This document shows positions 10,121-52,665 of a DNA stretch of 54,530 nt, in pieces. Both the position numbers and the translations under genes were made by a program. Numbering within the stretch: the stretch's first letter is position 1; each line of letters begins with the position of its first letter. Source of the stretch: Roseburia sp. Lineage in GTDB: Bacteria; Bacillota; Clostridia; Lachnospirales; Lachnospiraceae. The notes beneath the pieces were generated by a model. That model did no database searches. It was not told the DNA's origin and saw only the letters and a list, made by a program, of their open reading frames with translations. The stretch is from assembly GCA_023662875.1 (NCBI GenBank), contig JAMPIG010000001.1, positions 164,388-218,917 on the forward strand, written 5' to 3'.

Positions 10121-10162
10121 CATAAAATCCACTCTTCGCAAAATTCTACTGTCAGGAATAAA
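10121..10162 (-). repeat. Palindromic intergenic repeat, TTATTC-GACAA family, copy A
   Basis: Read on the minus strand: TTATTCCTGACAGTAGAAT, then TTGCGAAGAG, then a GGATTTTATGG right arm. The left end and the GCGAAG centre match copies at 27791, 30426 and 38081; the right arm is more diverged. Intergenic. Confidence 0.55.
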
Positions 10163-10303
10163 AGAAAATGAAGCCCCAGACAACCGCCTGCGGCATTCAT
10201 TCTCCTTATTTTTTATCCTTTCATTTGCCGATGCAACTCAGGTCTGGACGCCTCCAGCCTGCGCCGTCCGGGCTTCGCCCGCGTTTTATCGGATGACACG
10301 TCC

Positions 10304-11227
10304 TTATTTTGCAGCGTTTCCCGCTTCCTTCCACGCCGTAGCGAGACTTGCGATCCCCTGCAGCTCGGAGGGAAGAAGAATCGTATTCGCCTTGCCGTCA
10401 GCCACCTTTTCAAAGGCCTCCAGACTCTTGATCTTCAGAACCGCTTCATCCGCTCCCGCTTCCTTCAGCATCCGGATACCGTCCGCGTTCGCCTGCTGCA
10501 CCTTCAGGATTGCCTCAGCCTCACCTTCCGCCTCGCGGATCATTTTCTCCTTTTCGGCCTCCGCACGCAGGATTGCGGACTGCTTGTCAGCCTCTGCGCG
10601 GAGAATTGCGGATTCCTTAGCGCCCTCCGCCTCCAGAATCTTCGCCTTCTTCTCACCTTCCGCACGGGTTACGGCCTCACGCCTCTCACGCTCCGCCTTC
10701 ATCTGCTTCTCCATGGCGTTCTGGATTTCCGCGGGAGGAATGATATTCTTCAGCTCGACACGGTTCACCTTGATCCCCCAGGGATCGGTAGCGATATCCA
10801 GCGCCGCCCGCATCTTCGTATTGATCGTCTCACGGCTGGTCAGGGTCTGATCCAGCTCCAGATCGCCGATAATGTTACGCAGGGTCGTCGCCGTCAGGTT
10901 TTCAATCGCCATCATCGGATTCTCCACACCGTAGGTAAACAGCTTCGGATCCGTGATCTGATAGAATACGACGGTATCAATCCGCATCGTAACGTTATCC
11001 TTTGTGATAACCGGCTGAGGCGGGAAATCCGCCACCTGCTCCTTCAGGTTTACCCTTCTCGCCACCTTATCCAGAAAAGGAGCCTTTACATGAAAGCCCA
11101 CCGACCAGGTTCCCTGATAAGCGCCCAGACGCTCGATCACATATGCCTGCGCCTGCGGAACAATCTTAAAGCAGGAGACAAGGATTCCCAGAACAATGAC
11201 TACCAGCACTAAAACAATCCATCCCAT
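10304..11227 (-). CDS. SPFH/stomatin-family membrane protein, QmcA-like
   Basis: A 307-residue membrane-anchored protein. One N-terminal hydrophobic helix (about residues 2-20) is followed by an SPFH/prohibitin domain (FKIVPQAQAYVIERLGAYQ to KNIIPPAEIQNAM) and a long Ala/Glu/Arg coiled coil (EAEGAKESAILRAEADK) that drives oligomer formation. Such proteins form large rings in membrane microdomains and act with NfeD proteins. Its partner is directly upstream, 71 bases away, so the pair forms one operon. The role of the pair (membrane fluidity, protein quality control) is known only in general terms. AGAGG precedes the ATG. Confidence 0.9.
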   Translation of the reverse strand: MGWIVLVLVVIVLGILVSCFKIVPQAQAYVIERLGAYQGTWSVGFHVKAPFLDKVARRVNLKEQVADFPPQPVITKDNVTMRIDTVVFYQITDPKLFTYGVENPMMAIENLTATTLRNIIGDLELDQTLTSRETINTKMRAALDIATDPWGIKVNRVELKNIIPPAEIQNAMEKQMKAERERREAVTRAEGEKKAKILEAEGAKESAILRAEADKQSAILRAEAEKEKMIREAEGEAEAILKVQQANADGIRMLKEAGADEAVLKIKSLEAFEKVADGKANTILLPSELQGIASLATAWKEAGNAAK

Positions 11228-11298
11228 TTTTACCTCTTTCCGAACCGCCCTCCCGGCAGTCCCTTTTTCAATATTTATGTCATCTCGGGGCGCAGACG

Positions 11299-11832
11299 CT
11301 ATTTCTGCTCCGCCTCCCGGGACTCCATCTCCTCAATCTGCGAAACGCTCATCGGCTCCGGAATCCGTTCCGCCTGCGGATTCAGCCTCTGCATCTGTTC
11401 GTCCGGCTTCACAATCAGCTTTACCCCGCTGACGGAAACCACATTCACCACGCTTCCCACCGGAATCCGAAGCTTCTCGTTCGCGCTGCGGGCGCTCCAT
11501 TCCTGACCGCTCAGCGTTACCTGACCGATCCCCTGAAGGTTATCGATCTCGCCGGTAACTACCGCCTGACGCCCTACCATGCTCTCCACATTAGTCTTTA
11601 CCCGGTCTCTGTTAAAATACTTGACCGCCACAGGCCTTGTAAAGAACAGGAGAAGCAGGGAAACCAGGGCAAACAATATGATCTGCAGCCACAGCGGCGC
11701 GCCCAGCAGGGTCGCCAGAATCGCCACCAGGGCACCTCCCGCAAACCAGATCGTCGTGAGCCCCATGGTCAGCACTTCCACCACAATCGCTATAATCAAC
11801 AATATCAGCCAGAATATCATTGTCTCAGTCAT
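11299..11832 (-). CDS. NfeD-like membrane protein
   Basis: A 177-residue protein with two to three N-terminal hydrophobic helices (FWLILLIIAIVVEVLTMGLT and LQIILFALVSLLLLFF regions), followed by an OB-fold domain (MVGRQAVVTGEIDNLQGIGQV, SVVNVVSVSGVKLIV) of the NfeD C-terminal type and a charged tail. NfeD proteins of this short class pair with SPFH proteins, and the SPFH gene follows directly. It is the first gene of the pair, behind a good promoter. GGGGAGGG lies just before the ATG. Confidence 0.88.
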   Translation of the reverse strand: MTETMIFWLILLIIAIVVEVLTMGLTTIWFAGGALVAILATLLGAPLWLQIILFALVSLLLLFFTRPVAVKYFNRDRVKTNVESMVGRQAVVTGEIDNLQGIGQVTLSGQEWSARSANEKLRIPVGSVVNVVSVSGVKLIVKPDEQMQRLNPQAERIPEPMSVSQIEEMESREAEQK

Positions 11833-11887
11833 AATGCATCCCTCCCCTTCGTTTCATGATAGTATTTACTTTGATTTTATTATCCTC

Positions 11888-11916
11888 ATTATATCCCAAA
11901 TTTCTCTCACAGGCAA
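11888..11916 (-). promoter_or_regulatory. Promoter of the NfeD-SPFH pair
   Basis: On the minus strand TTGCCT is followed by 17 bases and a consensus TATAAT, about 55 bases upstream of the NfeD start codon. Spacing is ideal and the -35 matches in four of six positions. Confidence 0.75.
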
Positions 11917-11966
11917 TCTGTTTCTTTGCACGGTAGACAAATATATCGTGCAAAAAGACCTGTTTT

Positions 11967-12011
11967 TTAAAAAAGGCGGGACGACGCAGCCTATAGCAAC
12001 GTCTTCCCGTC
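11967..12011 (-). terminator. Rho-independent terminator after the SleB-like gene
   Basis: On the minus strand a GC-rich stem (GACGGGAAGACG with CGTCGTCCCGCC) is followed by TTTTTT. It lies about 160 bases past the hydrolase stop and upstream of the NfeD promoter, so it separates the two units. The remaining bases of the 342-base gap hold no supported gene. Confidence 0.75.
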
Positions 12012-12174
12012 TTTCCCTTATGAAACACTTTTCTTCCTATCGTATCAGCCGACACCTGCCGATTCGCAGATCCCATCGTTTCTACGGAATCTATCGTTCT
12101 CGAAAGACCGAAAGATCTTCTCCGCTTTCTTCAGCATAAAATCTCCCTGTGCCCGTCCGGCTACGCCGCAATTC

Positions 12175-13251
12175 TCAATAGAACACATGATGGCCGATTA
12201 CCAGGCCCTCGCGCCCGTTGTTCCGGCGGAAATGCGTCAGATCGCCTACATTGGATACGCCCGAAAGCACTTCCTCCGCCGCCTGCTTACAGCTATCCTT
12301 GATCTTTCCGGACTCCAGCACCCTGTTCACCTTTCCGCTCATAGCGGGAGTAAACTGCCCGGACGCATAGATTACCCCGTGTATGCTGTCCGGATACGCG
12401 CCGCTTCTCACGCGGTTCATGACTACCGCGCCCACCGCTACCTGTCCTTCATACGGTTCTCCGCCTGCCTCACACTGAATCAAAGCCGCCAGCAGCAACG
12501 TGGTATCCACATCCGTCGTATACTCGCCGTAGTTCACATGCCGCTTCGCCTCACGCTCCGCCTCTTCTCTCGCCTTGATCTCTTCGATCGTCTCCCCGGC
12601 GTCAATCAGAAAGTCCAGCGTTACATACTCCCCCGACACATAGCCGTCCAGGCCGTCGTAGTCAATACAGACCCAGCCGCTTTCCTCGTCATTGCTAAGC
12701 ACCTCGACAATCTCGCCCTTTGGCAGCAGTCCGTAAACCTCCGCCTCCGTGCTGGGCTCCATCCTTACCCAGAGCGTCTCCTTGCTGATCGTCGCGATCA
12801 TCTTTCCCACATCGTTCGCCATCGCCAGCGCGTCCTCCCCAAACAGCAGGTACTGGTCGGACGCCCAGCCTACGATATTACCCGACTGCAGCTTCGTCCA
12901 GCCGTCCCTGCGATCCAGAATCATCCCGCCGCAGTCCTTGTAAAGCTTTCCGACCTTTTTTGCATCCTCACTGGCATCATTTCTCACGTTCAGCGCCGAC
13001 TTCACATTCGCCATAACCAGCGTCCCCAGAGTCTCCTCCTCTTCCCAAGAATTAATATTCAGCTCCCGGGACATAACGTCGGATATCGCGGCGGAACTCG
13101 CGGCATCCGGATTCAATAATGAGGCAACTCCTCCCCGCAGCTCCTCCAGATCGCCATCGCCGGCCTGAACAGCCATACCTGCCCCGAAAACCAGGAAAAG
13201 GAAAAGAAAGATTCCCGGCATAACGGCAGGCAGTTGTCTGCTTCTTGCCAT
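12175..13251 (-). CDS. Secreted cell-wall hydrolase, SH3 domains plus SleB-like domain
   Basis: A 358-residue exported peptidoglycan hydrolase. An N-terminal signal peptide (ARSRQ, then PGIFLFLFLVFGAGMAVQA) is followed by two bacterial SH3 domains (about 85-140, NVRNDASEDAKKVGKLYK; and 148-205, LWVRMEPSTEAEVYGLLPKG), a charged linker, and a C-terminal Hydrolase_2/SleB domain (AALIQCEAGGEPYEGQVAV, VVMNRVRSGAYPD, THFRRNNGREG, IGHHVFY). The Glu in QCEAGGE is the expected catalytic residue of the lytic transglycosylase-like fold. Spore-cortex SleB is the best known member, but vegetative hydrolases share the domain, and no germination gene is nearby. The start has GGAGG eight bases upstream. Confidence 0.9.
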   Translation of the reverse strand: MARSRQLPAVMPGIFLFLFLVFGAGMAVQAGDGDLEELRGGVASLLNPDAASSAAISDVMSRELNINSWEEEETLGTLVMANVKSALNVRNDASEDAKKVGKLYKDCGGMILDRRDGWTKLQSGNIVGWASDQYLLFGEDALAMANDVGKMIATISKETLWVRMEPSTEAEVYGLLPKGEIVEVLSNDEESGWVCIDYDGLDGYVSGEYVTLDFLIDAGETIEEIKAREEAEREAKRHVNYGEYTTDVDTTLLLAALIQCEAGGEPYEGQVAVGAVVMNRVRSGAYPDSIHGVIYASGQFTPAMSGKVNRVLESGKIKDSCKQAAEEVLSGVSNVGDLTHFRRNNGREGLVIGHHVFY

Positions 13252-13341
13252 TTTATTTACCTCCGAACAAACTTAGTCTATGGAAATTATTCCATTCTCT
13301 TCATAAATATATTACAAAGTTATTAAATTTGTTACGAAAGT

Positions 13342-13370
13342 ATCATAACAGACATTAAAATTTTTGTCAA
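13342..13370 (-). promoter_or_regulatory. Promoter of the SleB-like hydrolase gene
   Basis: On the minus strand TTGACA, 17 bases, TATGAT: near-consensus sigma-A, about 90 bases before the start codon in an AT-rich leader. A housekeeping promoter argues for vegetative rather than strictly sporulation-specific expression. Confidence 0.8.
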
Positions 13371-23825: not shown

Positions 23826-24022
23826 GCCGACAGGCCTTTTTGCTCCCGTCCCGCCTGCGTGGCCGATGGGCTTTTTCTGCTCCCACACTACCTGCGCGGC
23901 CGACGGGCTTTTTCTGCTCCCGCACCGCCTGCGCGGCCGACGGGCTTTTTCTGCTCCCGCACCGCCTGCGCGGCCGACGGGCTTTTTCTGCTCCCGCACC
24001 GCCTGCGCGGCCGACGGGCTTT
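23826..24022 (-). repeat. Tandem 37-bp repeats in the malQ leader
   Basis: About five contiguous units of GCCTGCGCGGCCGACGGGCT plus TTTTCTGCTCCCGCACC; the right three are nearly identical and the left ones diverge progressively. With no spacers this is a minisatellite, not a CRISPR array. On the minus strand each unit can fold (CCCG with CGGG, inner GCC with GGC) and ends in an A-rich spacer. It lies between the predicted malQ promoter and the malQ start. The frames are open but 37 is not a multiple of three, so coding is unlikely. Confidence 0.85.
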
Positions 24023-24206: not shown

Positions 24207-24288
24207 AAACAAGACGAAACCGTAAGCTGTTTCACTTGTCATGAACGACAGGCTTCCTGCTTCGCAGGAGTTCCATTGTCAGGAATAA
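24207..24288 (+). repeat. Leader hairpin plus palindromic repeat, TTATTC-GACAA family, copies B1/B2
   Basis: AAACAAGACGAAACCG and CTGTTTCACTTGTCATGAA form a hairpin (ACAAG-GAAAC with GTTTC-CTTGT). The second half is shared, 19 bases identical, with the leader of the ATPase gene at 52723. It is followed directly by a palindrome with centre CCTGCTTCGCAGG that ends, on the minus strand, TTATTCCTGACAATGG, the same end as copies at 10162, 27791 and 30426. The remainder of the 23738-24365 gap, outside the 37-bp array, shows nothing else. Confidence 0.65.
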
Positions 24289-27216: not shown

Positions 27217-27717
27217 TCAGTCCCCCTGGTAGGTAGGCGCGTTTTTCGGGCTCTTCCCCTTGATCACGTTATGATAATACGCGTAGGTCATCGGTGCGTC
27301 CTGCCGCAGCACATCCGCGTCCAGCACCTTCCCCAGAAACACCGTATGGCTGGAGGTCTCCATGCTGTCGATAACCTCGCAGACAAGGTAGGCGCAGGCG
27401 TCCGCAACCACAGGCATACACTCCTTAATCATCGGCTGCACCTTCTCATACTTGTCCGTATCCTTCCCGCTGTAAAAGCCAAAGGTTCCGATCACGCCCG
27501 GATCCGTATGTTCGCCCAAAATCGATACGGTAAACCGTTTCGTCTCTCTGATGCACTGATTTGTGTAATTGTCATGGTTGATGCTCACGGCAACTGTCGC
27601 CGGATCCGACGTAATCTGCATCGCGCTGTTTGCGGTACAGCCTGTCGCCCTCCCCTTGTCCCAGGTACTGATCACATAAACCCCGTAAGATAACTGATAT
27701 AGCGCGCTTTTATTCAT
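27217..27717 (-). CDS. Flavin reductase-like FMN-binding protein
   Basis: A 166-residue split-barrel flavoprotein (flavin reductase domain): SYGVYVISTWDKGRATGCTANSAMQ, then PATVAVSINHDNYT and GTFGFYSGKDTDKYEK. It resembles the flavin half of clostridial high-molecular-weight rubredoxin and flavoredoxin; it ends at the KGKSPKNAPTY linker where those proteins continue into rubredoxin, and no rubredoxin domain is coded here. A redox role in oxygen or NO defence is inference. It has GAAGGAGG upstream and lies 41 bases before the PlsC-like gene on the same strand. Confidence 0.88.
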   Translation of the reverse strand: MNKSALYQLSYGVYVISTWDKGRATGCTANSAMQITSDPATVAVSINHDNYTNQCIRETKRFTVSILGEHTDPGVIGTFGFYSGKDTDKYEKVQPMIKECMPVVADACAYLVCEVIDSMETSSHTVFLGKVLDADVLRQDAPMTYAYYHNVIKGKSPKNAPTYQGD

Positions 27718-27790: not shown

Positions 27791-27836
27791 TGATTCGTGA
27801 CAATAGAATTTTCGCGAAGCGCAAATTCTATTGTAT
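27791..27836 (+). repeat. Palindromic intergenic repeat, TTATTC-GACAA family, copy C
   Basis: TGATTCGTGACAATAGAATT, centre TTCGCGAAGCGC, right arm AAATTCTATTGT: the most symmetric copy. Arms ACAATAGAATTT and AAATTCTATTGT are perfect inverted repeats. It is upstream of the SRP RNA gene. Confidence 0.75.
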
Positions 27837-27994: not shown

Positions 27995-28142
27995 GCCGTG
28001 CATCCATGGCATAATGTTGAAATTCGGTCTTGCGCAATGGGAATCTGTGAACCGTGTCAGGTTGGGAACAAAGCAGCACTAAGCGGAACCTCTCATGTGC
28101 CGTGAGGAAGCCGGGTGGAGTTATGTCCGGATGCACGGTTTT
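27995..28142 (+). ncRNA. ffs: Signal recognition particle RNA
   Basis: The Ffh-binding hairpin is clear: GTGTCAGGTTGGGAACAAAG followed by CAGC and ACTAAG. The conserved GGAA tetraloop is kept, while the flanking UCC/GGA seen in most bacteria is changed to UUG/CAA, a compensated stem. The outer ends pair (CCGTGCATCC with GGATGCACGG), giving a closed molecule of about 148 bases. It works with Ffh to target membrane proteins. End positions are inferred from the pairing and the promoter distance. Confidence 0.9.
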
Positions 28143-28194
28143 GTTACAGGAACTGCTTGTCTGCGCCAGCCGGAGCGCGCAAAGGGGTATAAAT

Positions 28195-29112
28195 ATGACG
28201 CCAGAACAAATCGACATCTATATGACCGACTGCACCCTTTGTCCCAGAGAATGCCACTCGAACCGCCTTTCCGGTTCCGTCGGCCTCTGCGGCCAGACCG
28301 ACCGCCTGACTGCGGCAAGAGCCGCGCTGCACTATTGGGAAGAGCCCTGTATCTCCGGATCCGTTGGTTCCGGCGCTGTATTCTTCTCCGGCTGCAGCCT
28401 GCAATGCGTTTTTTGCCAGAATCACAATATCGCCCTGGGGAAAACCGGGAAACCGATTACTATAGAGCGGCTCGCGGAGCTGTTCCTGGAGCTCCAGGAG
28501 CAGGGTGCCGCCAACATCAATCTGGTGACGGCGGGCCACTTCCTTCCCCAGGTCTGCCGGGCCTTAGAGCTCGCCAAGGCCGCAGGACTGCAAATTCCCA
28601 TCGTCTACAATACCGGCGGCTACGAAAAGGTCTCCTCCCTGCGCCTTTTGGAAGGACTTATCGATATTTATCTCCCGGATCTAAAATATTATTCTCCCGA
28701 GCTGTCCGCCGCCTGTTCCCATGCGCCGGACTATTTTTCCTGCGCTTCCGCCGCAATCCGCGAGATGGTTCGCCAGACCGGCGCGCCTGTCCTGGATGCC
28801 GCGTCCGGGCTGATGAAGCGGGGCGTGATCGTCCGTCATCTGGTGCTGCCCGGACAGACGCGGGATTCCAAAAAAATTCTGCGCTATCTTTACGAAACCT
28901 ATAAAGATGACATTTATGTCAGTATCATGAACCAATACACTCCTCTGGAGCAGGTGCGAGATATCCCCGCCCTGAACCGAACCGTCACGGAAGCGGAATA
29001 CGAAAGAGTGCTGAATTTCGCGGAGAAAATCGGGATCACCCAGGGCTTTCGCCAGGAGGGTCAAACGGCGCTGGAAAGCTTTATCCCGGAATTCGACGGA
29101 AGAGGCCTTTAA
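28195..29112 (+). CDS. Radical SAM protein, PflX-like (pyruvate formate-lyase activase homologue)
   Basis: A 305-residue radical SAM protein. The N-terminus carries extra cysteines (Cys13, Cys16, Cys20, Cys32; CTLCPREC), then the radical SAM site GCSLQCVFC with Cys67, Cys71 and Cys74 in the CX3CX2C form. The rest follows the PflX branch (LVTAGHFLPQV, YNTGGYEKV, DIYLPDLKYY, RHLVLPGQ). The partner glycyl-radical or other substrate of PflX is unknown. The start has AAAGGGG before ATG. The last bases overlap the stop of the convergent DUF6128-like gene (shared TTAA). Confidence 0.88.
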   Translation: MTPEQIDIYMTDCTLCPRECHSNRLSGSVGLCGQTDRLTAARAALHYWEEPCISGSVGSGAVFFSGCSLQCVFCQNHNIALGKTGKPITIERLAELFLELQEQGAANINLVTAGHFLPQVCRALELAKAAGLQIPIVYNTGGYEKVSSLRLLEGLIDIYLPDLKYYSPELSAACSHAPDYFSCASAAIREMVRQTGAPVLDAASGLMKRGVIVRHLVLPGQTRDSKKILRYLYETYKDDIYVSIMNQYTPLEQVRDIPALNRTVTEAEYERVLNFAEKIGITQGFRQEGQTALESFIPEFDGRGL

Positions 29113-30407
29113 AGGGTCACCTTCATCATATAATAGCCGAAATCCCCCTCTTGAGCCGGTTCCTCCGCACACTCAAAGCTCTCAAAGCCGAACATGACCG
29201 CCACCTGTTTTTCCCGGTCAAAGTAATTGCCCGGAACGCCCAGGTAATAAAGAATCTCTCCCCTCTTCTCCAGCTTTGTCAAAATCAGATGGCGGTAGTT
29301 ATAATAGCCGTGCAGCAGAAAGCTGTTGTTTGCCGTGCGGTAGGATTCCTCGGAAAACAGGACAAAATCGGCGGGGCTCAGGGAAAGATAATCCCGCTCG
29401 TCCTGAAAGGGCTGGATGTGCGGATAGATGGCCCAAAGCTGACGCCACTTATCCTCCCGAAGCCTTACAGCGCGGGATTTGTGCGCTTCGCCTGTGACAT
29501 CCGCGGTCTGGGTCTGCTCCGAAGCAGTTCGCGTATTCGATACATTCTTCTCTTCCGGCACAATCCTACCTTCTGATATAACTTCCCCTTCCGGCGCAGC
29601 GCTCCCTTTCGACATAGATTCCCCTTCCGACGTAGTCTCCCCTTCTGACATAGATTCCCTTTCCGACGTAGTCTCCCCTCCTGGCATAGATTCCCTTTCC
29701 GGCGCAATATTCCTCTTCGATGCCGTCTTCTCTTCTTCCTTCCCCTGCCTCTCCTCTTTCTCTCCAGCAGTTGCCCACCGGGAAAATAACCCCTGATTTC
29801 GCACCGCTTCCTTATCGTCCTCTTTCCGCAGACCTCCGCCATCCTTCCCCTGCTGCGAATGCTTCCCGTCCTCCCGCTCCTTCCCTCCCGGCTGATGCTT
29901 TCCGTCCTCCCGTTTCGACCCTTCCAACGGACGCTTCCCGTCCACTCGCTTCGGCTCTTCCAACGGACGCTTTCCGCCCTCGTGCCTCGGCTCTTCCAAC
30001 GGACGCTTCCCGTCCTTAGATTCCGGCTCCTTTCCCCGGGAGCTTTCCTTCTCCCTTCCCTCCGCCGGCCACTTACAGGACACCTCGATCTCCCCGCCAA
30101 GCGGAATCCGAAGCCCGGTCAACTCCCCGGCCGACAGCTCCCTCCCCGGCAGGTCGCGCTTTAAATTTCCCTGATACCGAAAGCTGCCGCCGCCGTTTTC
30201 GACTCGAATCCGCCCCAGAACCGTCTCCCCCTCCAGATCGGTCAGGATGACCTCCGCCGTTCTCCCCTCCGCGGACAAGATTCCTTTCAGCGTCAGATCC
30301 AGCTTAAAGAAATCTCCGTTTCGTTCCGTCCTGGCGAATCCGCCTCCCTTGATCCTTTCTCCGCTTTTGCAGTAATCAAGATATCTGACGTGCTTGTCAT
30401 AATCCAT
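29109..30407 (-). CDS. DUF6128-like protein with repetitive central region
   Basis: A 432-residue protein. The N-terminal domain (YDKHVRYLDYCKSGERIKGG, about 1-115) and the C-terminal domain (WAIYPHIQPFQDERDYLSL to GDFGYYMMKV, about 325-432) match a conserved Lachnospiraceae family I recognise as DUF6128; function unknown. Between them is a long charged linker with two repeat sets: four to five copies of a 13-residue DGKRPLEEPKRV-type block (39 bp) and about eight copies of an 8-residue SEGESMSE/TTSEGE-type block. No signal peptide or membrane helix. The start at MDYDKH has AGGGGG upstream. Its stop overlaps that of the convergent radical SAM gene. Confidence 0.72.
   Translation of the reverse strand: MDYDKHVRYLDYCKSGERIKGGGFARTERNGDFFKLDLTLKGILSAEGRTAEVILTDLEGETVLGRIRVENGGGSFRYQGNLKRDLPGRELSAGELTGLRIPLGGEIEVSCKWPAEGREKESSRGKEPESKDGKRPLEEPRHEGGKRPLEEPKRVDGKRPLEGSKREDGKHQPGGKEREDGKHSQQGKDGGGLRKEDDKEAVRNQGLFSRWATAGEKEERQGKEEEKTASKRNIAPERESMPGGETTSERESMSEGETTSEGESMSKGSAAPEGEVISEGRIVPEEKNVSNTRTASEQTQTADVTGEAHKSRAVRLREDKWRQLWAIYPHIQPFQDERDYLSLSPADFVLFSEESYRTANNSFLLHGYYNYRHLILTKLEKRGEILYYLGVPGNYFDREKQVAVMFGFESFECAEEPAQEGDFGYYMMKVTL
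29560..29720 (-). repeat. 24-bp in-frame repeats in the DUF6128-like gene
   Basis: About seven units of a 24-bp theme (plus strand: TCCCCTTCCGACGTAG and variants) code for Glu/Ser/Thr-rich octapeptides. Unit length is a multiple of three, so copy-number change would keep the frame. Confidence 0.7.
29850..30020 (-). repeat. 39-bp in-frame repeats in the DUF6128-like gene
   Basis: Plus-strand GGCTCTTCCAACGGACGCTT recurs about every 39 bases (three close copies and two diverged) and codes for Lys/Arg/Pro/Glu-rich 13-residue blocks. Confidence 0.75.
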
Positions 30408-30425
30408 AAATATCCCCCTAAGTTT

Positions 30426-30470
30426 ATTATTCACGACAATAGAATTCCCGCGAAGCATGAATTCTATTGT
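30426..30470 (+). repeat. Palindromic intergenic repeat, TTATTC-GACAA family, copy D
   Basis: TTATTCACGACAATAGAATT, centre CCCGCGAAGCATG, right arm AATTCTATTGT. It is nearly identical in layout to the copy at 27791. Confidence 0.75.
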
Positions 30471-30544
30471 TCTGCCTTCCTGTCATTTCCAGTATATTCA
30501 GGGGGTTGTCTCATATATGCCTGTTCTCCGGCGCATCTTCCCTG

Positions 30545-30700
30545 CCGTCTCTTTTTCGCCTGCTGGCTCTTTTCGGCCTGCTTCCCTTTTCCGCCCGCTT
30601 CCCTTTTCCGTCCGACTTCCTTTGTCTCGCCTGCTTTCCTTTGTTCCGTCTGCCTTCCTTTGTTCCGCCTGCCTTCCTTTGTTCCGTCCGCCTTCCTGTC
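30545..30700 (-). repeat. Degenerate 17-19 bp minisatellite
   Basis: On the minus strand, starting just past the permease stop, about nine units of GGAAGGCAGACGGAACAAA and shorter variants (GGAAGCGGGCGGAAAAG). The first three are almost identical and the array decays away from the gene. It occupies most of the 292-base gap. Confidence 0.8.
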
Positions 30701-38080: not shown

Positions 38081-38122
38081 TTATTTGCGACAATAAAATT
38101 TGCTCCCAGCGGGAATTCTACT
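38081..38122 (+). repeat. Palindromic intergenic repeat, TTATTC-GACAA family, copy E
   Basis: TTATTTGCGACAATAAAATT, centre TGCTCCCAGCGG, right arm GAATTCTACTG. It overlaps the stop codon of the YesL-like gene, whose TAG is supplied by the repeat arm. Confidence 0.65.
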
Positions 38123-38843
38123 GCCTGTTTTCGGCTGCATCCCCTTCCGCCAGGACAGGATCCAGCTCATCCTTAAAGATCCTCTCGTCCTCACCCGCTT
38201 CCTCCGGCTCCGCGGGATCGTTGGCCGCCGTGATCTGATCCTCCAGCCTCTTAAAGAGCTTATTGTACAGCTTGGCCGAGCACCAGGCCGGCGCGGAAAG
38301 CCCGAACAGAAGCGAGAGCGGCATCAGTTGTATCACAAAGAGAAAAACCGCCAGCGGTATCAGATAAAGTATCATCATCAGGATCGTCTTGGGAAACTGC
38401 ATCACGCTCATCATAAACGCGTTCTTAATGGTTCTAAATACCGTGTTCTCAAACTTCGCCAGCACCGGGAACACATACAGGGCCGTAAAAACCACAAGCA
38501 GGGCGATGGCAATCAGAACCCCCCTGAAAATATTGCTGAACTCTATCCCGGAGCTCCTCATGATGAAAAAATCTCCCACGAGAACCAGCATCACCACGAA
38601 AAGGATCAGCCAGATCAGAGTAGCCTGCCTGAAATTTTCCTTAAAGGATTTAAAGAACCCCTTCGTAATATAGCATTCCTCATTCCTCGCGATCTTTAAC
38701 GCCATATAATTCATGGCCGTCAGAGACGCCCCTATCGTCACGATGGGAATACAGCAGATCAGCGTCAGTACATTGAGCCACATCAGATCAGCCATCTTCC
38801 CCAGACCCTGCATCAGCGGGCTGTCAATGTTTAAAAATTTCAT
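38118..38843 (-). CDS. YesL/DUF624-family membrane protein
   Basis: A 241-residue membrane protein with about five helices. It starts with the family signature (PLMQGLGKMADLMWLNVLTL, then CCIPIVTIGASLTAMNYM) and ends in an acidic tail (EPEEAGEDERIFKDELD). YesL proteins occur next to sugar-ABC importers and are thought to help them, but their role is not known; here the only transporter part nearby is ugpC. The stop codon lies in a dispersed palindromic repeat, so the tail may have been extended or trimmed by that insertion. Confidence 0.85.
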   Translation of the reverse strand: MKFLNIDSPLMQGLGKMADLMWLNVLTLICCIPIVTIGASLTAMNYMALKIARNEECYITKGFFKSFKENFRQATLIWLILFVVMLVLVGDFFIMRSSGIEFSNIFRGVLIAIALLVVFTALYVFPVLAKFENTVFRTIKNAFMMSVMQFPKTILMMILYLIPLAVFLFVIQLMPLSLLFGLSAPAWCSAKLYNKLFKRLEDQITAANDPAEPEEAGEDERIFKDELDPVLAEGDAAENRQ

Positions 38844-42963: not shown

Positions 42964-42969
42964 TTTAAC

Positions 42970-44840: not shown

Positions 44841-45962
44841 ATGCAAAGCAGTGAAAGACAAAAGCAGTGGGAACCGGATATCATCGATATCCGCAGGGAT
44901 CCATATGCGGTTTCCTTCGAGCAAAGGAGAAGGCAGCGCGCCGCGGGCGACCGGCAGATTAATTCTCAGAGAAGAGTCGATCCGCAAAGACAGGCGAATC
45001 CGCAAAGAGGAGGCTACCCCCAAAGGTCGGCGAATCCGCGGAGGACAATCGACCTGTCGGGACTGCCTGTTTCGCAGAGAAGTTCCGGCGGCCAAACCCA
45101 GACTCTTCCTCAACGAAGCCCCGGCGGCCGGTCTCAGACTCTTCCGCAACGAAGCCCCGGCGGCCAGACTCAGGCTCTTCCGCAGAGAAGAACCGAGGCT
45201 CGGCGTCCGGCGAACCCGGCCGGAAATACCCGCAGCCGCCGGGCGGCGCTCCAGAGACGCAGAAAATACATACGCCGCCAACGGATTGCCGTCGGAGTTT
45301 TTATCGGCTGTATCGCGGCCGCCTTCTGTCTTCTGATTATATTGCCGAATAAGTCATCCGCCGCCGGAGCAAACCGCGAGAATCGGATCACCCGAGAGCA
45401 GAAAGACGGCCAGTCCCAGACTGCGGAACCCTCTATACAGGGGCTTCCCGCAACCGTTTTTTCCAGCCATCCCGTCTGGACCGAGGATTTCCTGACGCCA
45501 AACGAATTCTCCAGACCCGGCGAAGCCCTGCCGGAGGTGAAAAATATTTTCGTACACTACACCGCGAACCCGGGCACCAGCGCTTCCCAGAACCGCAGCT
45601 ATTTCGAGCAGCAGAAGGACACTCATCAGGTCAGCGTCAGCGCCCATTTCATTATCGGATACGAGGGAGAGATTCTGCAATGCGTTCCGCTGGACGAAAT
45701 CGCCTACGCGGTACAGACCCGCAACTACGACTCGATTTCGATCGAATGCTGTTACAAGGCGGCGGACGGCTCCTTTACGCAGGAAACCTATGATTCCCTG
45801 ATCTCCCTTCTGGCCTGGCTGACGGAGGCTTACGACCTGGATCCCGAGGACATTTTACGGCACTACGACTGCGGCGGAAAAAAATGTCCGCTCTACTATA
45901 CGGAGCATCCGGACGCCTGGGAACGCCTGAAGGAGGACGTCACGCAGACGCTGAGCCTGTGA
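44841..45962 (+). CDS. Membrane-anchored N-acetylmuramoyl-L-alanine amidase
   Basis: A 373-residue type II membrane protein. Residues 1-148 are cytoplasmic, very rich in Arg, Gln and Pro, with three copies of a 13-residue GGQTQTLPQRSP block at about 82-116; a single helix follows (149-169, IAVGVFIGCIAAAFCLLII); the outside part is an Amidase_2/PGRP domain with zinc ligands in FVHYTANPG, SAHFIIGYEGEI and RHYDCGGKKCP. It should cleave the muramic-acid to L-Ala bond of peptidoglycan at the membrane face. A basic disordered tail of this size inside the cell is unusual for an amidase. GAGGTGGG precedes the start. Confidence 0.88.
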   Translation: MQSSERQKQWEPDIIDIRRDPYAVSFEQRRRQRAAGDRQINSQRRVDPQRQANPQRGGYPQRSANPRRTIDLSGLPVSQRSSGGQTQTLPQRSPGGRSQTLPQRSPGGQTQALPQRRTEARRPANPAGNTRSRRAALQRRRKYIRRQRIAVGVFIGCIAAAFCLLIILPNKSSAAGANRENRITREQKDGQSQTAEPSIQGLPATVFSSHPVWTEDFLTPNEFSRPGEALPEVKNIFVHYTANPGTSASQNRSYFEQQKDTHQVSVSAHFIIGYEGEILQCVPLDEIAYAVQTRNYDSISIECCYKAADGSFTQETYDSLISLLAWLTEAYDLDPEDILRHYDCGGKKCPLYYTEHPDAWERLKEDVTQTLSL

Positions 45963-47357: not shown

Positions 47358-47387
47358 TCGGACTACAGCGGGCCTGATTTTAACGCT

Positions 47388-47440
47388 AACAACAAAATTT
47401 GCTATTCCTGCTAACGCAGGTGAAAGGAATATTGTCATGA
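47388..47440 (-). repeat. Palindromic repeat, TTATTC-GACAA family, copy F, over the start of the M6-like gene
   Basis: Read on the minus strand: ATTCATGACAATATTCCTTT, centre CACCTGCGTTAGCAGG, right arm AATAGCAAATTTTGTTGT. The ribosome site and the ATG of the next gene lie inside the left arm. Confidence 0.5.
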
Positions 47441-50400
47441 ATTTATTCCATTCTTATACGTCACACGCAAGGGCAGCCCTTTTAAAAAAGAAACAATTCT
47501 CCGGGAATAACAGATCGCCCCGGACTTTCTTCCGCCTTGCGGCTGTTATTTTGACTGCGGCGTTGACACTTTGTCTTCTTCCCCAGGAATTCCCGGAGAA
47601 GGTTCAGGCCGCAGGCGGCACGCAGGAGAGGGCGAATGTAGTGATCTTTGTAAGGGACAGCGGCGAAAACGTCGATGTCTTTAATACGGGTTCCAGCTGG
47701 TCGCTGATCAAGCAGATGTACAACACCGGAATCGACAGCACCGGAGGATACAATAATTCCTTCTCCAACTATATCTCTGTGATTACGGAAGGAAAAGTTC
47801 ATGTCACTAACTATTTCCCTCAGGAATCAGGCTCCGGAGTGAATACGCTGGTGCTTTCCGGTGTCGATCTCAGCGACGTGTACCGGGACACTGGTGCCGC
47901 TGTGTTACAAAAGGTCGTAGAAGCTCTGGGAGACAGCATCCCGTTTAACAGAGCCGCTGCAAAATACGATAATCTCGAGAACGGCGTTCTGGATAATCTG
48001 ACCATTATTATCCAAAATACCACTGAGACTACCCCGTCCAGCTTTAAGGCATCCGGTTCCGGCTTACAGACGAAAGACGGGCTCCGTATCGGAAGCTATA
48101 ATGTACTCTATTCCAATTCTCTTGTAACGAATAACGGAGCGCCTGCCAACTCTTCCAGACAGGGCGTGATTGCTCACGAGTTCCTGCATACCCTGGGGCT
48201 TCCCGACCTCTACCGTCTCAACGGCAGCAAAGGGGAACCCGTGGGGCGGTGGGATATTATGGCGAACGCTCTTCCTTATCCCCAGTACCCTCTTTCCTAT
48301 CTCCGCGCCAGACAGGGCTGGATCTCCATGGGAACCATTACCCAAAGCGGAACCTATACCCTGACCGCGGTATCGGAATCCGGCGGCAACAAGGTTTTTG
48401 CCCTGAAGACCCCTCTTTCTGATACGGAGACAATCTATATCGAATACCGGAAAAAAGTTGATAATCCTCCCAATTATTTTGAGAGCGCAATCCCCTCCAG
48501 CGGCCTGTTGCTTTATCGGGTAGACGAAAAGGTAGAATATCTTACAAATACCAATGGGAAAAACTATATTTACATTTACCGCCCCGACGTGACCGACCCG
48601 GAAGCCGCCACCGACCTGAAATCAGACAGGAGGAATAAAGTCTGGAACGCTGCACTGGACGGCTCCATCGGCAAAGGCTCCTACGGCAGCACCGACCTGT
48701 CGGCTGATTTTACCCAGAATACCCTGTATTACTCCGATGGCCGAAACAGCGGCATCCGCATCAGCGACGTCAAGCTGTCCGGCAATACGGCTACCTTTAC
48801 CGTAACCTTTGCGGAATACGGCAATATCGGCCTCTGGGAGAAAATGGGCGAGTCCCAGGGAACGAATATAAACGATGAGCCGGTTCTCTATACGGATCCG
48901 GCCTCCGGCGCTCTTTATCTGGCCTATATAGAAAACAACAGTCTTTTTGTGAAACAGTGGAACGGAAGCAGCTGGCAACAGCTGGGCGCTGCTATTCCGT
49001 TAGTTGTTTCACAGGGCAGCAAACCGGCTCTAGCTGTATCGGACGGCGTCCTTTACCTGTCTTTGATCGGTTCTGGCAACAGTGTCGTCTATTATAAGCT
49101 GAACGGGGCTTCCTGGAGCCAGGTCGCCTCCATCAGCACTACAAGTTACCCTATGTCGATGCAATTTGTATCGGATGGAACTGAGCTTTACGGTGCATAC
49201 GCCGATAACGGTCGGTTTATTATTCGCAATGTTAAGACTGGCGCTCTGGTGACCAACAATCTCAACGGCTCAAATTACGCTACCCCTGCCTTGGTTAAGC
49301 AGGGCAGCCGCTTTTATATGGTGTGCTCCGAATACGACAACAACGGTTCCCCTACAAAGGGCGGCCATGTCAAAATGTACGATATGAACAGCGGCAACTG
49401 GAGTACAGTTTGTGAGCTTTCGGGCTCTCTTACAAACGACCATCACATTATCACTCAGGGAGAGAAGCTGTACGTCTATGCCGGTTGTCAAAACACAGCC
49501 CCTGTCTACGCGGTATTCGACGGAAACAGCTGGAGCAAGACCACTATTTCCGATATGACAATGGCTTATTCCGTTTCCATGGATTACCTGGACGGCAATA
49601 TATATCTGTCTTACTATGACAATGCTGACCATAAAACAAAAGTAATAAAGTGCATCGGTTCTTCCTGCTCTTTGTACAATGATACTCTGGGAACCGGCCT
49701 GCAGCATTTACAGGTCTGCAGCAGCAATGGCACCCTTTACGCAGTTACAAAAGCTTCGGGCGTTAACTATGTCAGCGTCTGGAAGAGGGTCGTCTCCGCC
49801 GGACAGACAAATACTCCGACGCCCATCCCCGGGCAGACCGCGCGGACGCTGGTTCTGACGCCGCCGGACGGGTATCAGGACAATCATATTTATGTAGACG
49901 GCATCGAATACACCGCCCAAAAAACGAGTAGCGGCTATTCTCTGGAACTGCCGGACACAACAGGCAAAACAGCCGTCATGTACTGCTACAACGCGAATAA
50001 TGTTCCTACCGGAATGTATGTCTGGAAACTGTCCTGGCAGGGAGAAATCTGCCAGGCGACCCCGCTGCCCGGGCTGCAGGATCTGCTGAGTTATCATGGG
50101 TTTTCCATAAGGATTGTGGAACCGGCAGGGATAAGGTTTAAGTCGGGAATTGACGCTTCTGTCAAGCAGCGGCTTCTGAGCAGTGGGATCAACGGATGCC
50201 GACTGAAGGAATACGGTACGTTATCCATCACCGGCAATAACCTGAAAAAATATCCCCTTGTAAAAGGCGGCACCGGGGTAAGCGGCGGAAGAGCATACTA
50301 TCAGAAAGCGGACGGCAGCGTATATGATAAGGTCTTCGAAACAGTCTCCGGTCGTAATCGTTTCGCTTCCGTATTGACGAAAATTCCTGCCAGCGCATAC

Positions 50401-50592
50401 GCCTCAGAGCTGGTCTTTCGCTCTTATGCCGTCCTGGACTGCGAGGGACAGGAGCTGATTATCTACGGCCCGCCCATGCGAAGAAGCGTTTATACGGTTG
50501 CAGTCCAGGTTAAGAACGCAGGAATATACAAGCAGGGAACCAGCGCTTATAATTATATACAGGCAATCATCGATTCTGTAGAAAAGAAATAA
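47437..50592 (+). CDS. Large secreted M6-like metalloprotease with beta-propeller region
   Basis: A 1051-residue exported protein. Signal peptide at about residues 28-60 (FFRLAAVILTAALTLCLLPQ, cleavage near VQAAGG) after a basic extension. The protease domain (about 65-460) has HEFLHTLGLPD with His247, Glu248, His251 and Asp257, the M6 (immune inhibitor A-like) zinc motif, followed by a RWDIM Met-turn and a YIEYRKK segment. Residues about 460-790 hold about six repeats with G-x-LY and WNGSSW-type elements, likely a beta-propeller. A linker rich in Thr/Pro (about 790-800) and two small C-terminal domains follow (FSIRIVEPAGIRFKSGIDAS). No LPxTG anchor or dockerin is seen. AAAGGAA precedes the start. 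Confidence 0.85.
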   Translation: MNLFHSYTSHARAALLKKKQFSGNNRSPRTFFRLAAVILTAALTLCLLPQEFPEKVQAAGGTQERANVVIFVRDSGENVDVFNTGSSWSLIKQMYNTGIDSTGGYNNSFSNYISVITEGKVHVTNYFPQESGSGVNTLVLSGVDLSDVYRDTGAAVLQKVVEALGDSIPFNRAAAKYDNLENGVLDNLTIIIQNTTETTPSSFKASGSGLQTKDGLRIGSYNVLYSNSLVTNNGAPANSSRQGVIAHEFLHTLGLPDLYRLNGSKGEPVGRWDIMANALPYPQYPLSYLRARQGWISMGTITQSGTYTLTAVSESGGNKVFALKTPLSDTETIYIEYRKKVDNPPNYFESAIPSSGLLLYRVDEKVEYLTNTNGKNYIYIYRPDVTDPEAATDLKSDRRNKVWNAALDGSIGKGSYGSTDLSADFTQNTLYYSDGRNSGIRISDVKLSGNTATFTVTFAEYGNIGLWEKMGESQGTNINDEPVLYTDPASGALYLAYIENNSLFVKQWNGSSWQQLGAAIPLVVSQGSKPALAVSDGVLYLSLIGSGNSVVYYKLNGASWSQVASISTTSYPMSMQFVSDGTELYGAYADNGRFIIRNVKTGALVTNNLNGSNYATPALVKQGSRFYMVCSEYDNNGSPTKGGHVKMYDMNSGNWSTVCELSGSLTNDHHIITQGEKLYVYAGCQNTAPVYAVFDGNSWSKTTISDMTMAYSVSMDYLDGNIYLSYYDNADHKTKVIKCIGSSCSLYNDTLGTGLQHLQVCSSNGTLYAVTKASGVNYVSVWKRVVSAGQTNTPTPIPGQTARTLVLTPPDGYQDNHIYVDGIEYTAQKTSSGYSLELPDTTGKTAVMYCYNANNVPTGMYVWKLSWQGEICQATPLPGLQDLLSYHGFSIRIVEPAGIRFKSGIDASVKQRLLSSGINGCRLKEYGTLSITGNNLKKYPLVKGGTGVSGGRAYYQKADGSVYDKVFETVSGRNRFASVLTKIPASAYASELVFRSYAVLDCEGQELIIYGPPMRRSVYTVAVQVKNAGIYKQGTSAYNYIQAIIDSVEKK

Positions 50593-50615
50593 AACGGAAA
50601 CAGGGAGAGATCAGA

Positions 50616-51299
50616 ATGACGAGAAAGCACATTGCAATTACGATTTTTGTAGAAATCATAGCCTTTGCAGCAGGCTTTTTACTGCGGCCTGTCTGGAACG
50701 CTTCCACGGCGGATGAAGTTCAGACAGGAAGCGGAACGGGACAGATTTATCAGAGCGGGAACGAATCGCCCTCCCAAGGGCAGATTCTTTCTCAGGAAAC
50801 CGGCAGTTCCACTATAGAGCCTGTGAAAGCGGAAAATACCATTCCCGCGGATAACGTCCAGGTGCGTGTCGATGACGGCCTGATTCAGTGGTACGACGGC
50901 ACAATCTGGCACACAGTGGCTACCGTAGAAGAATTGTCTCAGGAAGATAAATTTAATCAGGCTCTGGAGGCTTTTCAGATTTTTTCCCAGGAATTACAGC
51001 AGGAAAAAGCGGAAACCCCCTCTCAATCCCAGCAGACAGGCACCTTCTGGGACAAAGACGGCGGTCTGTCCGTAGGGAAAAAGGAAACGCCGAAAGCGAC
51101 GCCAAAGCCCGCTGCCACTCCGCCCGCCGCGGAAGAACCGACGGCTCAGGAACCGGCAGTCGAAAATACGGCTCCCGCCGCGCCCAGCACACCAGCTCCC
51201 AGCGCTCCGAGTACGCCCAGCGTTCCGGATACCCCCTCCACTCCGGCCCCCAGCGAAGGGGATGGAGAAGATATGGAGTGGACTCCTGACTTTGAATAA
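50616..51299 (+). CDS. Membrane-anchored Pro/Ala/Thr-rich protein
   Basis: A 227-residue protein with one N-terminal membrane segment (about 5-24, IAITIFVEIIAFAAGFLL), a short folded region that contains DGLIQWYDGTIWHTVATVEE (a pattern seen in surface modules that start WYDGT-W), a helix, and a C-terminal tail rich in Pro, Ala, Thr and Ser with repeated APSTP/PSTPS units ending DMEWTPDFE. The tail may span the cell wall. It lies 23 bases after the M6-like gene, with CAGGGAGAG before the ATG, so the two are co-transcribed. Function unknown. Confidence 0.7.
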   Translation: MTRKHIAITIFVEIIAFAAGFLLRPVWNASTADEVQTGSGTGQIYQSGNESPSQGQILSQETGSSTIEPVKAENTIPADNVQVRVDDGLIQWYDGTIWHTVATVEELSQEDKFNQALEAFQIFSQELQQEKAETPSQSQQTGTFWDKDGGLSVGKKETPKATPKPAATPPAAEEPTAQEPAVENTAPAAPSTPAPSAPSTPSVPDTPSTPAPSEGDGEDMEWTPDFE

Positions 51300-51341
51300 T
51301 TACAAAATGGCAAGGCATAAGGCGGACGAGAAACCGAACCC

Positions 51342-52205
51342 CTACAGCAACACGCAAACCTCATCATAGATCGCCCGCAAAAGCTCCTCGCCTCTCCGAC
51401 ACTCCGCAACAACCGATATTACCGCCTCTTTATCCGGCAGCACCATGGAGATCTGGGAGTACTTACCGTCCGCCCTGAACGAGTTATACTCCCCTCTCCA
51501 GAAAAGATAGCCGTACGGCGCATCCGCATACTGTCTTGTACTCTCCTCGATCCATTGCTCGGACAACAGCTGTTTTCCGTTCCATTTCCCTTTATTCAGG
51601 TAAAACAGGCCGAATTTATGTAATTCCGTAAGAGTCAGGAACAATCCTCCCGCCCCGAACGTATTCCCAAGGGGATCTGTCTCCCAGGTGGGACGCTTGA
51701 TACCGAGATGCGAGAAAAGTCTGGGCGTAAGATAGGAAACCAAGTCGCAGCCCGCCCGCCTTTGAACAAGGATTCCTGCAAGGTACGGGCCCGCATTATT
51801 GTATACAAAACGTGTTCCCGGCTCATATACAAAGGGGATCGACAGGCTCAGCTTCACCCAATCGTCCTCCGCGTAGAGAGGTCTTTGCGCCCCCATAAGA
51901 TTACCGCGTTCCTGACCAAGATGCATCGTCAGCAAATCCCTTACTGTCGCCTTTTCCAGATTACCGCTGATACTTTCCGGCAAATCTCCGGGAAAAGCGT
52001 CCGTCAGTTTTTCCTCAAGCGAGAGCAGCCCTTCTTGGACAGCAAATCCCACCGCGCAGGAGGTAAAGCTTTTCGCGGCGGAGTACAGATTTCTCCTGCA
52101 TTCCTCTTCACTTTTCCATTCGGCGACGGTTTGATTATTCCGGCTGATTTTAATACCGAGCACTCCCATTTTGCCCGCATAGTCTGCAAATTTTGATATA
52201 TCCAT
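51342..52205 (-). CDS. Beta-lactamase-fold serine hydrolase (class C-like)
   Basis: A 287-residue protein of the beta-lactamase/D-Ala-D-Ala peptidase fold. The SxxK motif is S42-A-A-K45 in NLYSAAKSFTSCAVGF; the YxN motif is Y135-N-N137 in FVYNNAGPYLAG; a GGLFLTLTELHKFG segment and a C-terminal VISVV strand follow. There is no signal peptide, so it probably acts in the cytoplasm as an esterase or peptidase and not as a secreted antibiotic hydrolase. The start at MDISKF has AAAGGAG seven bases upstream. A long hairpin lies upstream. Confidence 0.85.
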   Translation of the reverse strand: MDISKFADYAGKMGVLGIKISRNNQTVAEWKSEEECRRNLYSAAKSFTSCAVGFAVQEGLLSLEEKLTDAFPGDLPESISGNLEKATVRDLLTMHLGQERGNLMGAQRPLYAEDDWVKLSLSIPFVYEPGTRFVYNNAGPYLAGILVQRRAGCDLVSYLTPRLFSHLGIKRPTWETDPLGNTFGAGGLFLTLTELHKFGLFYLNKGKWNGKQLLSEQWIEESTRQYADAPYGYLFWRGEYNSFRADGKYSQISMVLPDKEAVISVVAECRRGEELLRAIYDEVCVLL

Positions 52206-52256
52206 CTCCGTTCTCCTTTTATGACGATACATTATTGTGAATTGCAAATTCTAAGG

Positions 52257-52301
52257 TTAACGTGGGCGTTTTTGCATTTTTGTCAAAAACGCTCACGTTA
52301 A
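52257..52301. promoter_or_regulatory. Long perfect inverted repeat upstream of the hydrolase gene
   Basis: TTAACGTGGGCGTTTTTG and CAAAAACGCTCACGTTAA (17 of 18 pairs) flank a nine-base loop about 50 bases before the start of the hydrolase gene, with T/A-runs outside. It could be an operator (palindrome) or a terminator for whatever reads in from the right. The rest of the gap to the ATPase gene at 52723 is AT-rich and holds only a promoter and a leader hairpin. Confidence 0.6.
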
Positions 52302-52556
52302 AAATACTATATATATTCACTCGGCTCCTCCAGCAATCCCGAAATATCGATATATTCCGGTGGAATATAATCCGAACTTTCTGCCGCAGAATCATACATC
52401 GCAGACAGCAGTTTAAAATTCCACTTTTTTTCACTATCTTCCCATTGACGCTATCTCCCGCCTGCTTTTAAACTAAATTTCTCCTTTCATATTTTTTAAT
52501 CTAATGTCGGAAACTATCAAATTATTATAAGTTTTCGACTTACAAGTCAAAAACTA

Positions 52557-52585
52557 TTGCACTACTCTTTTTTTTCGGATATACT
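52557..52585 (+). promoter_or_regulatory. Promoter of the DUF4143 ATPase gene
   Basis: TTGCAC, 17 bases, TATACT. It is followed after about 39 bases by the hairpin shared with the GNAT gene leader. Confidence 0.6.
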
Positions 52586-52621
52586 ACAAGCAGACCGAAA
52601 CAACGGATACCGGCATCTGAA

Positions 52622-52665
52622 CAAACAAGATGAACCGGCACTCTGTTTCACTTGTCATGAATAAT
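52622..52665 (+). repeat. Leader hairpin shared with the GNAT gene, copy G
   Basis: AAACAAGATGAACCGG, a short spacer, CTGTTTCACTTGTCATGAA, then TAATAAG. The second block is identical over 19 bases to 24228-24246. On the minus strand it reads TTATTATTCATGACAAGTG, linking it to the palindromic family. Confidence 0.65.

Follow-up and report, generated by a model that had tools for sequence, protein, structure and literature searches.

Introduction

A stretch of 54,530 nucleotides from Roseburia sp. (the window; bases 164388-218917 of contig C63, in a genome of 3.72 Mb that consists of 151 contigs and is 92% complete) carries several copies of a short palindromic repeat in the gaps between its genes. 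The locus raises the question of what this repeat is, where it inserts and what could move it. An earlier note on the same DNA had described a dispersed family of REP (repetitive extragenic palindrome) or MITE (miniature inverted-repeat transposable element) type, recognizable by a TTATTC end. Here we describe the repeat as a hairpin unit that inserts precisely behind a T-rich pentanucleotide, favourably just 3' of terminator-like hairpins. This placement, the TNRTT target and a second hairpin type were not seen by the earlier note.

Results

The repeat family and its hairpin unit

To establish whether the family is real, the exact head of the repeat, TTATTCNYGACAA, was counted in the genome and was found 25 times, versus once for a reversed control pattern. 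Within the window, the head with up to two mismatches gave 17 matches where 6.2 were expected, a count that none of 100 shuffles reached; the mismatched head alone is a noisy signal, and a structure model was more decisive. This model was derived from an alignment of 16 copies of the main form, type 1 (57 columns, 15 pairs), and was used to search the whole genome. At an expectation value (E) ≤0.1 the search returned 112 rows, and removal of 21 opposite-strand echoes of the palindrome left 91 places. Two of the removed rows (C83:19690 and C151:50801) are probably additional array units, and the place on contig C49 and that at C63:192168 are alleles of one site. Genes were called by a simple codon-usage caller, with a coverage of 85.9% of the window. 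The large majority of the places (88 of 91) lie outside called genes, 19 of these 88 between divergent genes; the three exceptions include the window's copy at 30426, where the called start is upstream of a likelier one. The repeat family proposed by the earlier note is confirmed as real, dispersed, intergenic, palindromic and mobile.

The type-1 unit is a single imperfect hairpin of ∼40 nt, CATGACAATAGAATTCTCGCGAAGCGTGAATTCTATTGTT. Its core of 39 letters ended in CTATTGT in 124 of 141 copies, and the unit measures 40 with the next T. The stem (ACAATAGAATTC/GAATTCTATTGT) has a T.T mismatch inside and GCGAAGC at its apex; among 97 distinct 39-nt copies the mismatch was present in 70 and the apex in 49. 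GCGAAGC is known as a DNA mini-hairpin of unusual stability. The DNA fold of the consensus was predicted at -13.5 kcal/mol (z -6.6). Two-sided compensatory changes filled 56 cells in the 97 copies, whereas 200 shuffles averaged 18.8 and never exceeded 27. This control takes no account of relatedness; the changes suggest that the stem is under constraint. No Rfam match was found at the element, either in the window at gathering scores or in six loci at E ≤1.

A second hairpin, type 2 (CATGACAAGTGAAACAGCTTGCGGTTTC..TCTTGTT), has its head in common with type 1 and is present in mixed arrays; strict matches to it were found at 4 distinct places in 743 kb of sequence from this genome, overlaps included. 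The units of an array are joined head to tail. Allowing one mismatch, 12 of the 141 copies show the corresponding junction, TTGTT/CATGAC, three of them (L080, L093 and L105) apparently by chance.

Empty sites and target sequence

The boundaries of the insertion were obtained from two copies that lie within genes of other genomes and have relatives without the insert. Locus L034 (CAOKWI010000013.1; same sequence as G151) lies within an open reading frame (ORF). Of the 28 loci aligned to it (L188-L215), L188 has an identical sequence and L189 breaks off inside the element; the other 26 (L190-L215), relatives that are only ∼63-73% identical over the query, lack 39 bp: the filled site reads GTCATT-(39 nt)-GCAGAATG and the empty site, for example, TCATT-GTAGAA. 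Locus L049 (JAMPFT010000008.1) interrupts another gene, and here exactly 40 nt are absent from L249 (81% identical) and L251 (79%), with CCTTTGATT-(40 nt)-TGACG for the filled and CCTTTGATTTGACG for the empty site. We take the interrupted genes to encode an AAA-type ATPase and a DUF86/HepT-like protein, respectively. The edge at L049 slides by one or two T, and L034 fixes the left edge. At both empty sites a target-site duplication is absent, and the element was inserted precisely as the unit CATGAC...CTATTGTT. When L036 was compared with its orthologue in the Roseburia genome, the intergenic stretch was too diverged for an empty-site call.

The 5' flanks of 141 distinct copies had T at -5 in 91%, A at -3 in 77%, T at -2 in 93% and T at -1 in 96%. 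The most frequent pentamers were TTATT (61), TGATT (19), TTGTT (13), TAATT (8), TTTTT (7) and TCATT (5), while the 3' flank was informative at its first two positions only (T77/T58). As the structure model contains flank columns, the loci that it found could be biased to T-rich flanks. A subset of copies found by a pattern beginning at TTC had T at -5 in 20 of 21 and A at -3 in 13 of 21. Insertion takes place immediately 3' of the T-rich pentanucleotide TNRTT, with TTATT preferred, and the demand on the 3' side extends to at most two bases. The 3' end of the type-1 unit, TTGTT, itself fits this target.

Placement beside terminator-like hairpins

A hairpin was counted as standing beside a site when its RNA minimum free energy (MFE) was ≤-12 and its end lay 2-11 nt before the TTC of the copy. 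In the Roseburia genome (90 copies, one duplicate removed) such a hairpin stood beside 35 copies, 23 of these with a T-rich tail. Shifted controls gave 6-10 hairpins, 2-3 of them with a T-rich tail, and the mirror position on the 3' side gave 6 of 88, none of the 88 with a T-rich tail. In other genomes the hairpin was present beside 41 of 58 copies versus 41 of 388 T-rich intergenic control sites (Fisher 7e-22; orthologous copies of related genomes can count twice among the 58), and the same copies had a hairpin on the mirror side in 5 cases and sixty bases upstream in one. The pattern-only subset showed the same placement, with 18 of 22 copies and 3 of 22 on the mirror side. When five genomes were pooled (166 of 210 readings kept, reverse readings excluded), the hairpin was on the 5' side in 73 of 166 and on the 3' side in 13 of 164. 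Per genome, the 5'-side counts were 12/27 in G019, 8/14 in G021, 9/14 in G014, 15/30 in G078 and 29/81 in the Roseburia genome. Copies favour the T-tract immediately 3' of a same-strand terminator-like hairpin, and the orientation of the element with respect to the hairpin is fixed; the placement is a preference, not a rule.

Distribution among relatives and recent mobility

The element was detected at E ≤1e-5 in 52 of 138 genomes of the genus; 40 candidates were scored per genome, so that copy counts are lower bounds. In the family, of which 14 candidates per genome were scored, it was present in 35 of 397 genomes and 31 of 334 sampled genera. Outside the family there was one marginal match (E 0.0013), in one of 16 genomes of the same order. 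The record labels of the carriers include Acetatifactor muris, Blautia sp. and Lachnospiraceae bacterium; one carrier isolate is labelled Muribaculum sp., which we take as a depositor's error. Two scans of a viral collection gave no exact-pattern matches. Searches of the open-access literature (by sequence, for terminator-targeted elements and for Lachnospiraceae palindromes) gave no title that describes this hairpin family.

Copies in genome G014 were 0.945 identical to each other versus 0.77-0.83 between genomes, and all 12 full-length copies examined there were at most 2 nt from that genome's own consensus. In G078 the within-genome identity was mildly above that between genomes, and in G021 it was 0.735 versus 0.74-0.77, with no local burst.

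Copies within the window

The window contains the following copies, with element boundaries set by analogy with the empty sites.

27796..27835, plus strand: type-1 element after TGATT (27791-27795), perfect outer arms, model E 3.5e-14, DNA fold -12.0 kcal/mol
30432..30471, plus strand: type-1 element after TTATT (30427-30431), model E 1.4e-14
10117..10156, minus strand: type-1 element after TTATT, model E 4.3e-6
24244..24283, minus strand: decayed type-1 element after TTATT (24284-24288), unit 1 of a two-unit array, model E 0.0026
24208..24243, minus strand: type-2 hairpin element CATGACAAGTGAAACAGCTTACGGTTTCGTCTTGTT, unit 2 of this array, exact TGACAAGTGAAACAG
52660..52699, minus strand: decayed type-1 element, unit 1 of a two-unit array, model E 2e-4
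52624..52659, minus strand: type-2 hairpin element, unit 2 of this array, exact TGACAAGTGAAACAG
38086..38125, plus strand: weak type-1 copy after TTATT, model E 0.025
47386..47439, minus strand: doubtful copy, decayed but with its head ATTCATGACAATA intact at 47430-47442, model E 0.76, not significant

Eight sites had been listed in the earlier note. Those at 27791, 30426, 10162 and 24288 and the unit upstream of 52665 are clear by the model, the perfect arms ACAATAGAATT/AATTCTATTGT reported for 27791 and 30426 are present, and 38081 is a weak member. The sites at 24250 and 52665 had been counted as the same family; both open a type-2 hairpin, with TGACAAGTGAAACAG exact (0.04 expected at up to two mismatches). 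The site at 47440 is not significant by the model. It does have the 13-letter head ATTCATGACAATA exactly, for which, with one mismatch allowed, three sites were found versus 0.09 expected, and it is therefore probably a decayed copy. Its supposed intrusion on a start codon at 47437 is doubtful, because the gene caller starts that gene at 47563. The other overlap that had been described was observed: the DUF624 gene 38118-38843 (minus strand; here and below, gene families are from Pfam) has its stop codon within the distal arm of the weak copy at 38086..38125.

The element at 27796..27835 adjoins the 5' side of a flavin-reductase-like gene (27217-27717, minus strand), and that at 30432..30471 is upstream of a minus-strand ORF that is DUF6128-like (slightly under the cut-off, 26.9 of 27 bits) and whose likely start, by eye, is near 30410. 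The element at 10117..10156 directly follows a terminator-like hairpin (MFE -23.0, tail TTTTA), which stands behind a Band_7 gene (10304-11227, minus strand). The type-2 unit at 52624..52659 lies 5' of an AAA_14/DUF4143 gene (52723-53946, plus strand).

Several other features were noticed. A GC-rich hairpin, GCGCGCC..GCGCGC followed by AAAGGGGTATAARNATG, is present at 9997-10026 (minus strand) and 28169-28198 (plus strand) and in L108, L385, L388, L394 and L399; it is apparently a translation-start leader before different genes, with 7 distinct places in 743 kb of sequence from this genome, overlaps included. A bacterial small signal recognition particle RNA (70.8 bits) lies at 28021-28120 (plus strand), ∼185 bp from the copy at 27791. 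Tandem repeats of few copies each are found at 23837-24022 (37 nt), 45067-45195 (36 nt), 29842-29949 (36 nt) and 30606-30700 (19 nt), and a ∼55-nt repeat to the right of the L036 copy recurs at C10:8129-8187 and C7:1666-1718 of the Roseburia genome. The GC skew of C63 is +0.17 at 135-155 kb and negative throughout the window; the change, at ∼155-164 kb, may mark an inversion or a replication terminus immediately to the left of the window.

Discussion

A proposed route of insertion

The reading that we favour, with somewhat better than even confidence, is a non-autonomous mobile DNA hairpin of ∼40 nt that is moved in trans by an HUH-like single-strand endonuclease. We infer the single-strand mechanism, the action in trans and the creation of the target by a hairpin or a paused polymerase. 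The endonuclease, HUH-like as is TnpA of IS200/IS605, would recognize the hairpin and make its cuts behind TT, one at the 5' flank and one at the 3' end of the element. The excised strand would then be pasted into a T-rich site exposed as a single strand beside a hairpin, chiefly at terminators; such exposure could result from extrusion of the hairpin or from an RNA polymerase that pauses at the T-tract and opens the non-template strand. Copies after terminators would lie outside most transcripts and would therefore be harmless. The in-gene site of L049 has a 6-bp hairpin (ATGCGC..GCGCAT, -9.2 kcal/mol) just upstream, which cannot be the terminator of a gene and therefore favours structure over termination. 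The mobilizing enzyme may have been lost, be distant or be of another kind, and would be absent or unrecognized in the host today.

A more specific version, which we regard as possible and hold tentatively, is that the element is a minimal 40-nt single-hairpin transposon whose enzyme reads any hairpin with T-rich single strand behind it, be it that of an intrinsic terminator or the right end of the element itself, and inserts after TNRTT. Insertion may even be coupled to transcription termination, and the enzyme could represent a new nuclease family, HUH or other, that the Y1 model does not cover.

A number of observations weigh against movement by an HUH-like enzyme at hairpin-exposed targets. 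No strong hairpin stands beside 55 of the 90 copies in the Roseburia genome (by eye, several of these are just upstream of the ribosome-binding site of oppositely read genes), and the in-gene site of L034 has almost no hairpin upstream (-3.6). The right edge of L034 is uncertain, because the insert ends in A and not T. The Y1 transposase domain (Y1_Tnp, PF01797) had no match in the host, at 92% completeness of its genome, or in G019 and G021, all of which are copy-rich, and in a hand tally it was present in 7 of 21 carriers versus 13 of 40 non-carriers. The ends of the IS200 elements in G014, G042 and G023 look, by eye, like different hairpins (CCCCAGCtatGCTGGGG; loci of these three genomes plus two more were compared), and no autonomous element with type-1 ends was found. 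Finally, insertion into the lagging strand would predict a strand bias, and 24 of the 90 copies had enough flank for this to be assessed; the 21 of them away from hairpins were 13 to 8 with respect to GC skew, which is no significant bias. In our own tally for G279 and G214, 15 of 18 and 4 of 7 copies were on the G-rich strand, counts that are confounded with gene direction.

Candidate enzymes

The Y1 transposase was rejected as the mobilizer, having no match in the host and no association with the element. When the element model was run on 20 Y1 loci of the genus it gave 3 weak matches, the best (E 0.0056) beside a stray head in L173. In L183, L179, L180, L182 and L185 the Y1 matches lie in long open frames (246-338 aa) that are possibly RAYT-like, in genomes of the genus mostly without the type-1 element.

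Two further candidates were also rejected. The group II maturase (PF08388) matched in 29 of 138 genomes of the genus, among them G014 with one match and G019 with one that contains stops, but not in the host, G078 or G021. The IS110-family domain matched in 80 of the 138 at E ≤0.001 (50 over the cut-off), G014, G021 and G078 included, but not in the host or G019. In G014, where the burst is most recent, all three candidates are represented (an intact IS200-type Y1 gene, two matches to IS110 and one to the maturase), so that each is conceivable there. The absence of a transposase near the copies, noted earlier for the window, held more widely: when 430 proteins from 146 loci were clustered, no recurrent neighbour cluster was recognized by eye as a transposase, and the largest (8 loci) reads as ABC-transporter proteins.

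Comparison with known systems

The element resembles the PATEs (palindrome-only derivatives of IS200/IS605), group A IStrons and ISDra2, with which it shares insertion 3' of a T-rich pentanucleotide, specificity on the 5' side only, the lack of a target-site duplication and an end hairpin. For IS200/IS605-type IStrons, the available part of PMC4227781 describes insertion behind a T-rich pentanucleotide, without duplication and with specificity confined to the 5' side. The targets are of a kind, TTATT/TTGTT in the element beside TTGAT, ATTAT and TTTAT in IS200/IS605-type elements (passages of PMC4227781 and PMC7290912). The element differs in being 40 nt with one hairpin rather than two ends, in a host without a detected tnpA, in the different look of the IS200 ends in three genomes of its relatives, and in its strong preference for hairpin or terminator sites. 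In short, a fixed pentanucleotide without duplication was found, and ends common to a TnpA-encoding element were not, among the loci compared.

With REP, BIME and REPIN sequences the element shares a length of 20-40 bp, an intergenic position, an imperfect hairpin and a high copy number. BIMEs are mixed arrays of two hairpin types, comparable to the arrays of the element, which differ in being head to tail. The REP/MITE assignment of the earlier note holds in part: the repeat is palindromic, intergenic and mobile, but it lacks a target-site duplication, and neither a RAYT (Y1/TnpA_REP) in the host nor a GTAG or CGTC tag was found, the unpaired 5' end being CATG in the consensus of five genomes. 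In GTAG-type REPs, copies of the repeat flank a RAYT gene that serves them. An unpaired GTAG or CGTC (TGTC, CCTC) tag at one end marks the REP super-families, and CGTC REPs, too, have no dedicated transposase, according to the portion of PMC3733652 available.

Group IIC introns make no target-site duplication. As far as the accessible text of PMC3522654 goes, they insert directly downstream of intrinsic terminators, which the element does as a preference; it differs in its length of 40 nt and in having neither a ribozyme match nor a reverse transcriptase or maturase. The SPRITE, RUP and BOX repeats of Streptococcus pneumoniae are likewise small, dispersed and non-autonomous, and SPRITE lies near the 3' ends of genes. 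SPRITE is itself terminator-like, whereas the element often lies beyond an existing terminator, and the part of PMC3049150 available gives no empty site for SPRITE comparable to the two found here. We regard the element as an orphan REP-like element with hairpin- or terminator-directed insertion, whose insertion pattern resembles that of IS200/IS605.

Alternative explanations

The alternative that holds up best, unlikely as we consider it, is that the enzyme is not HUH-like but a recombinase (IS110-like, serine or tyrosine) that acts on a 2-bp TT core, with a circle joined as TTG-TT-CATGAC. It expects TT at both junctions, and this is mostly seen (>93% at the left; T77/T58 at the first two positions on the right). 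The array junctions, the lack of a duplication and the IS110 matches in the copy-rich G014, G021 and G078 agree with it. However, the host and G019 have no IS110-family match, the insert of L034 ends in TA and not TT, and IS110 matches also occur in many genomes without the element.

We consider it improbable that the hairpins are a functional RNA or DNA device beside terminators (3'-end protection, a backup terminator or a protein-binding site) that was spread by selection. The position beside terminator-like hairpins and the stem conserved with compensatory changes would suit such a device; exact insertions within genes, the patchy presence in 52 of 138 genomes, the genome-specific burst in G014 and the fact that 19 of the 88 copies outside genes lie between divergent ones argue against it. 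A mobile element could have been co-opted later for function.

Quite improbable is a scheme in which all T-rich sites are open to insertion and selection later leaves mainly the copies behind terminators. Purifying selection would naturally explain why copies are nearly absent from genes (88 of 91 lie outside), and more than half of the copies in the Roseburia genome are not beside a strong hairpin. However, the hairpins end 2-11 nt from the site with 1 of 58 at positions 60 nt away, other T-rich intergenic sites are beside a hairpin in only 41 of 388 cases, and selection alone is disfavoured because it would not fix the distance between hairpin and site.

A borrowed group IIC retro-mechanism, in which an intron-encoded reverse transcriptase inserts the hairpin RNA, is very improbable. 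The target class downstream of Rho-independent terminators is shared (PMC3522654, in the part available), and the maturase matches of G014 and, with stops, G019 fit; the host, G078 and G021 have no such match, and no Rfam match was found at the element in the sequences scanned. Least credible of all is a DDE-type MITE whose target duplication was overlooked: the repeat is short, palindromic, intergenic and non-coding, but two independent empty sites are without duplication and the strict pentanucleotide is on one side only, and this explanation was already disfavoured.

Significance

REP-like repeats are common, and how they move has seldom been established; for this one, the boundaries and the absence of a duplication follow from two exact empty sites. 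The strong and strand-specific placement after terminator-like hairpins poses a testable question, namely whether a transposase reads terminators, as structure or as paused transcription, and if so the element would parallel group IIC introns at the level of DNA elements. If an enzyme does read the hairpin with T-rich single strand, terminators would be ready-made safe landing sites and existing copies would seed tandem arrays. The element offers a short handle for finding the mobilizing enzyme in common gut bacteria.

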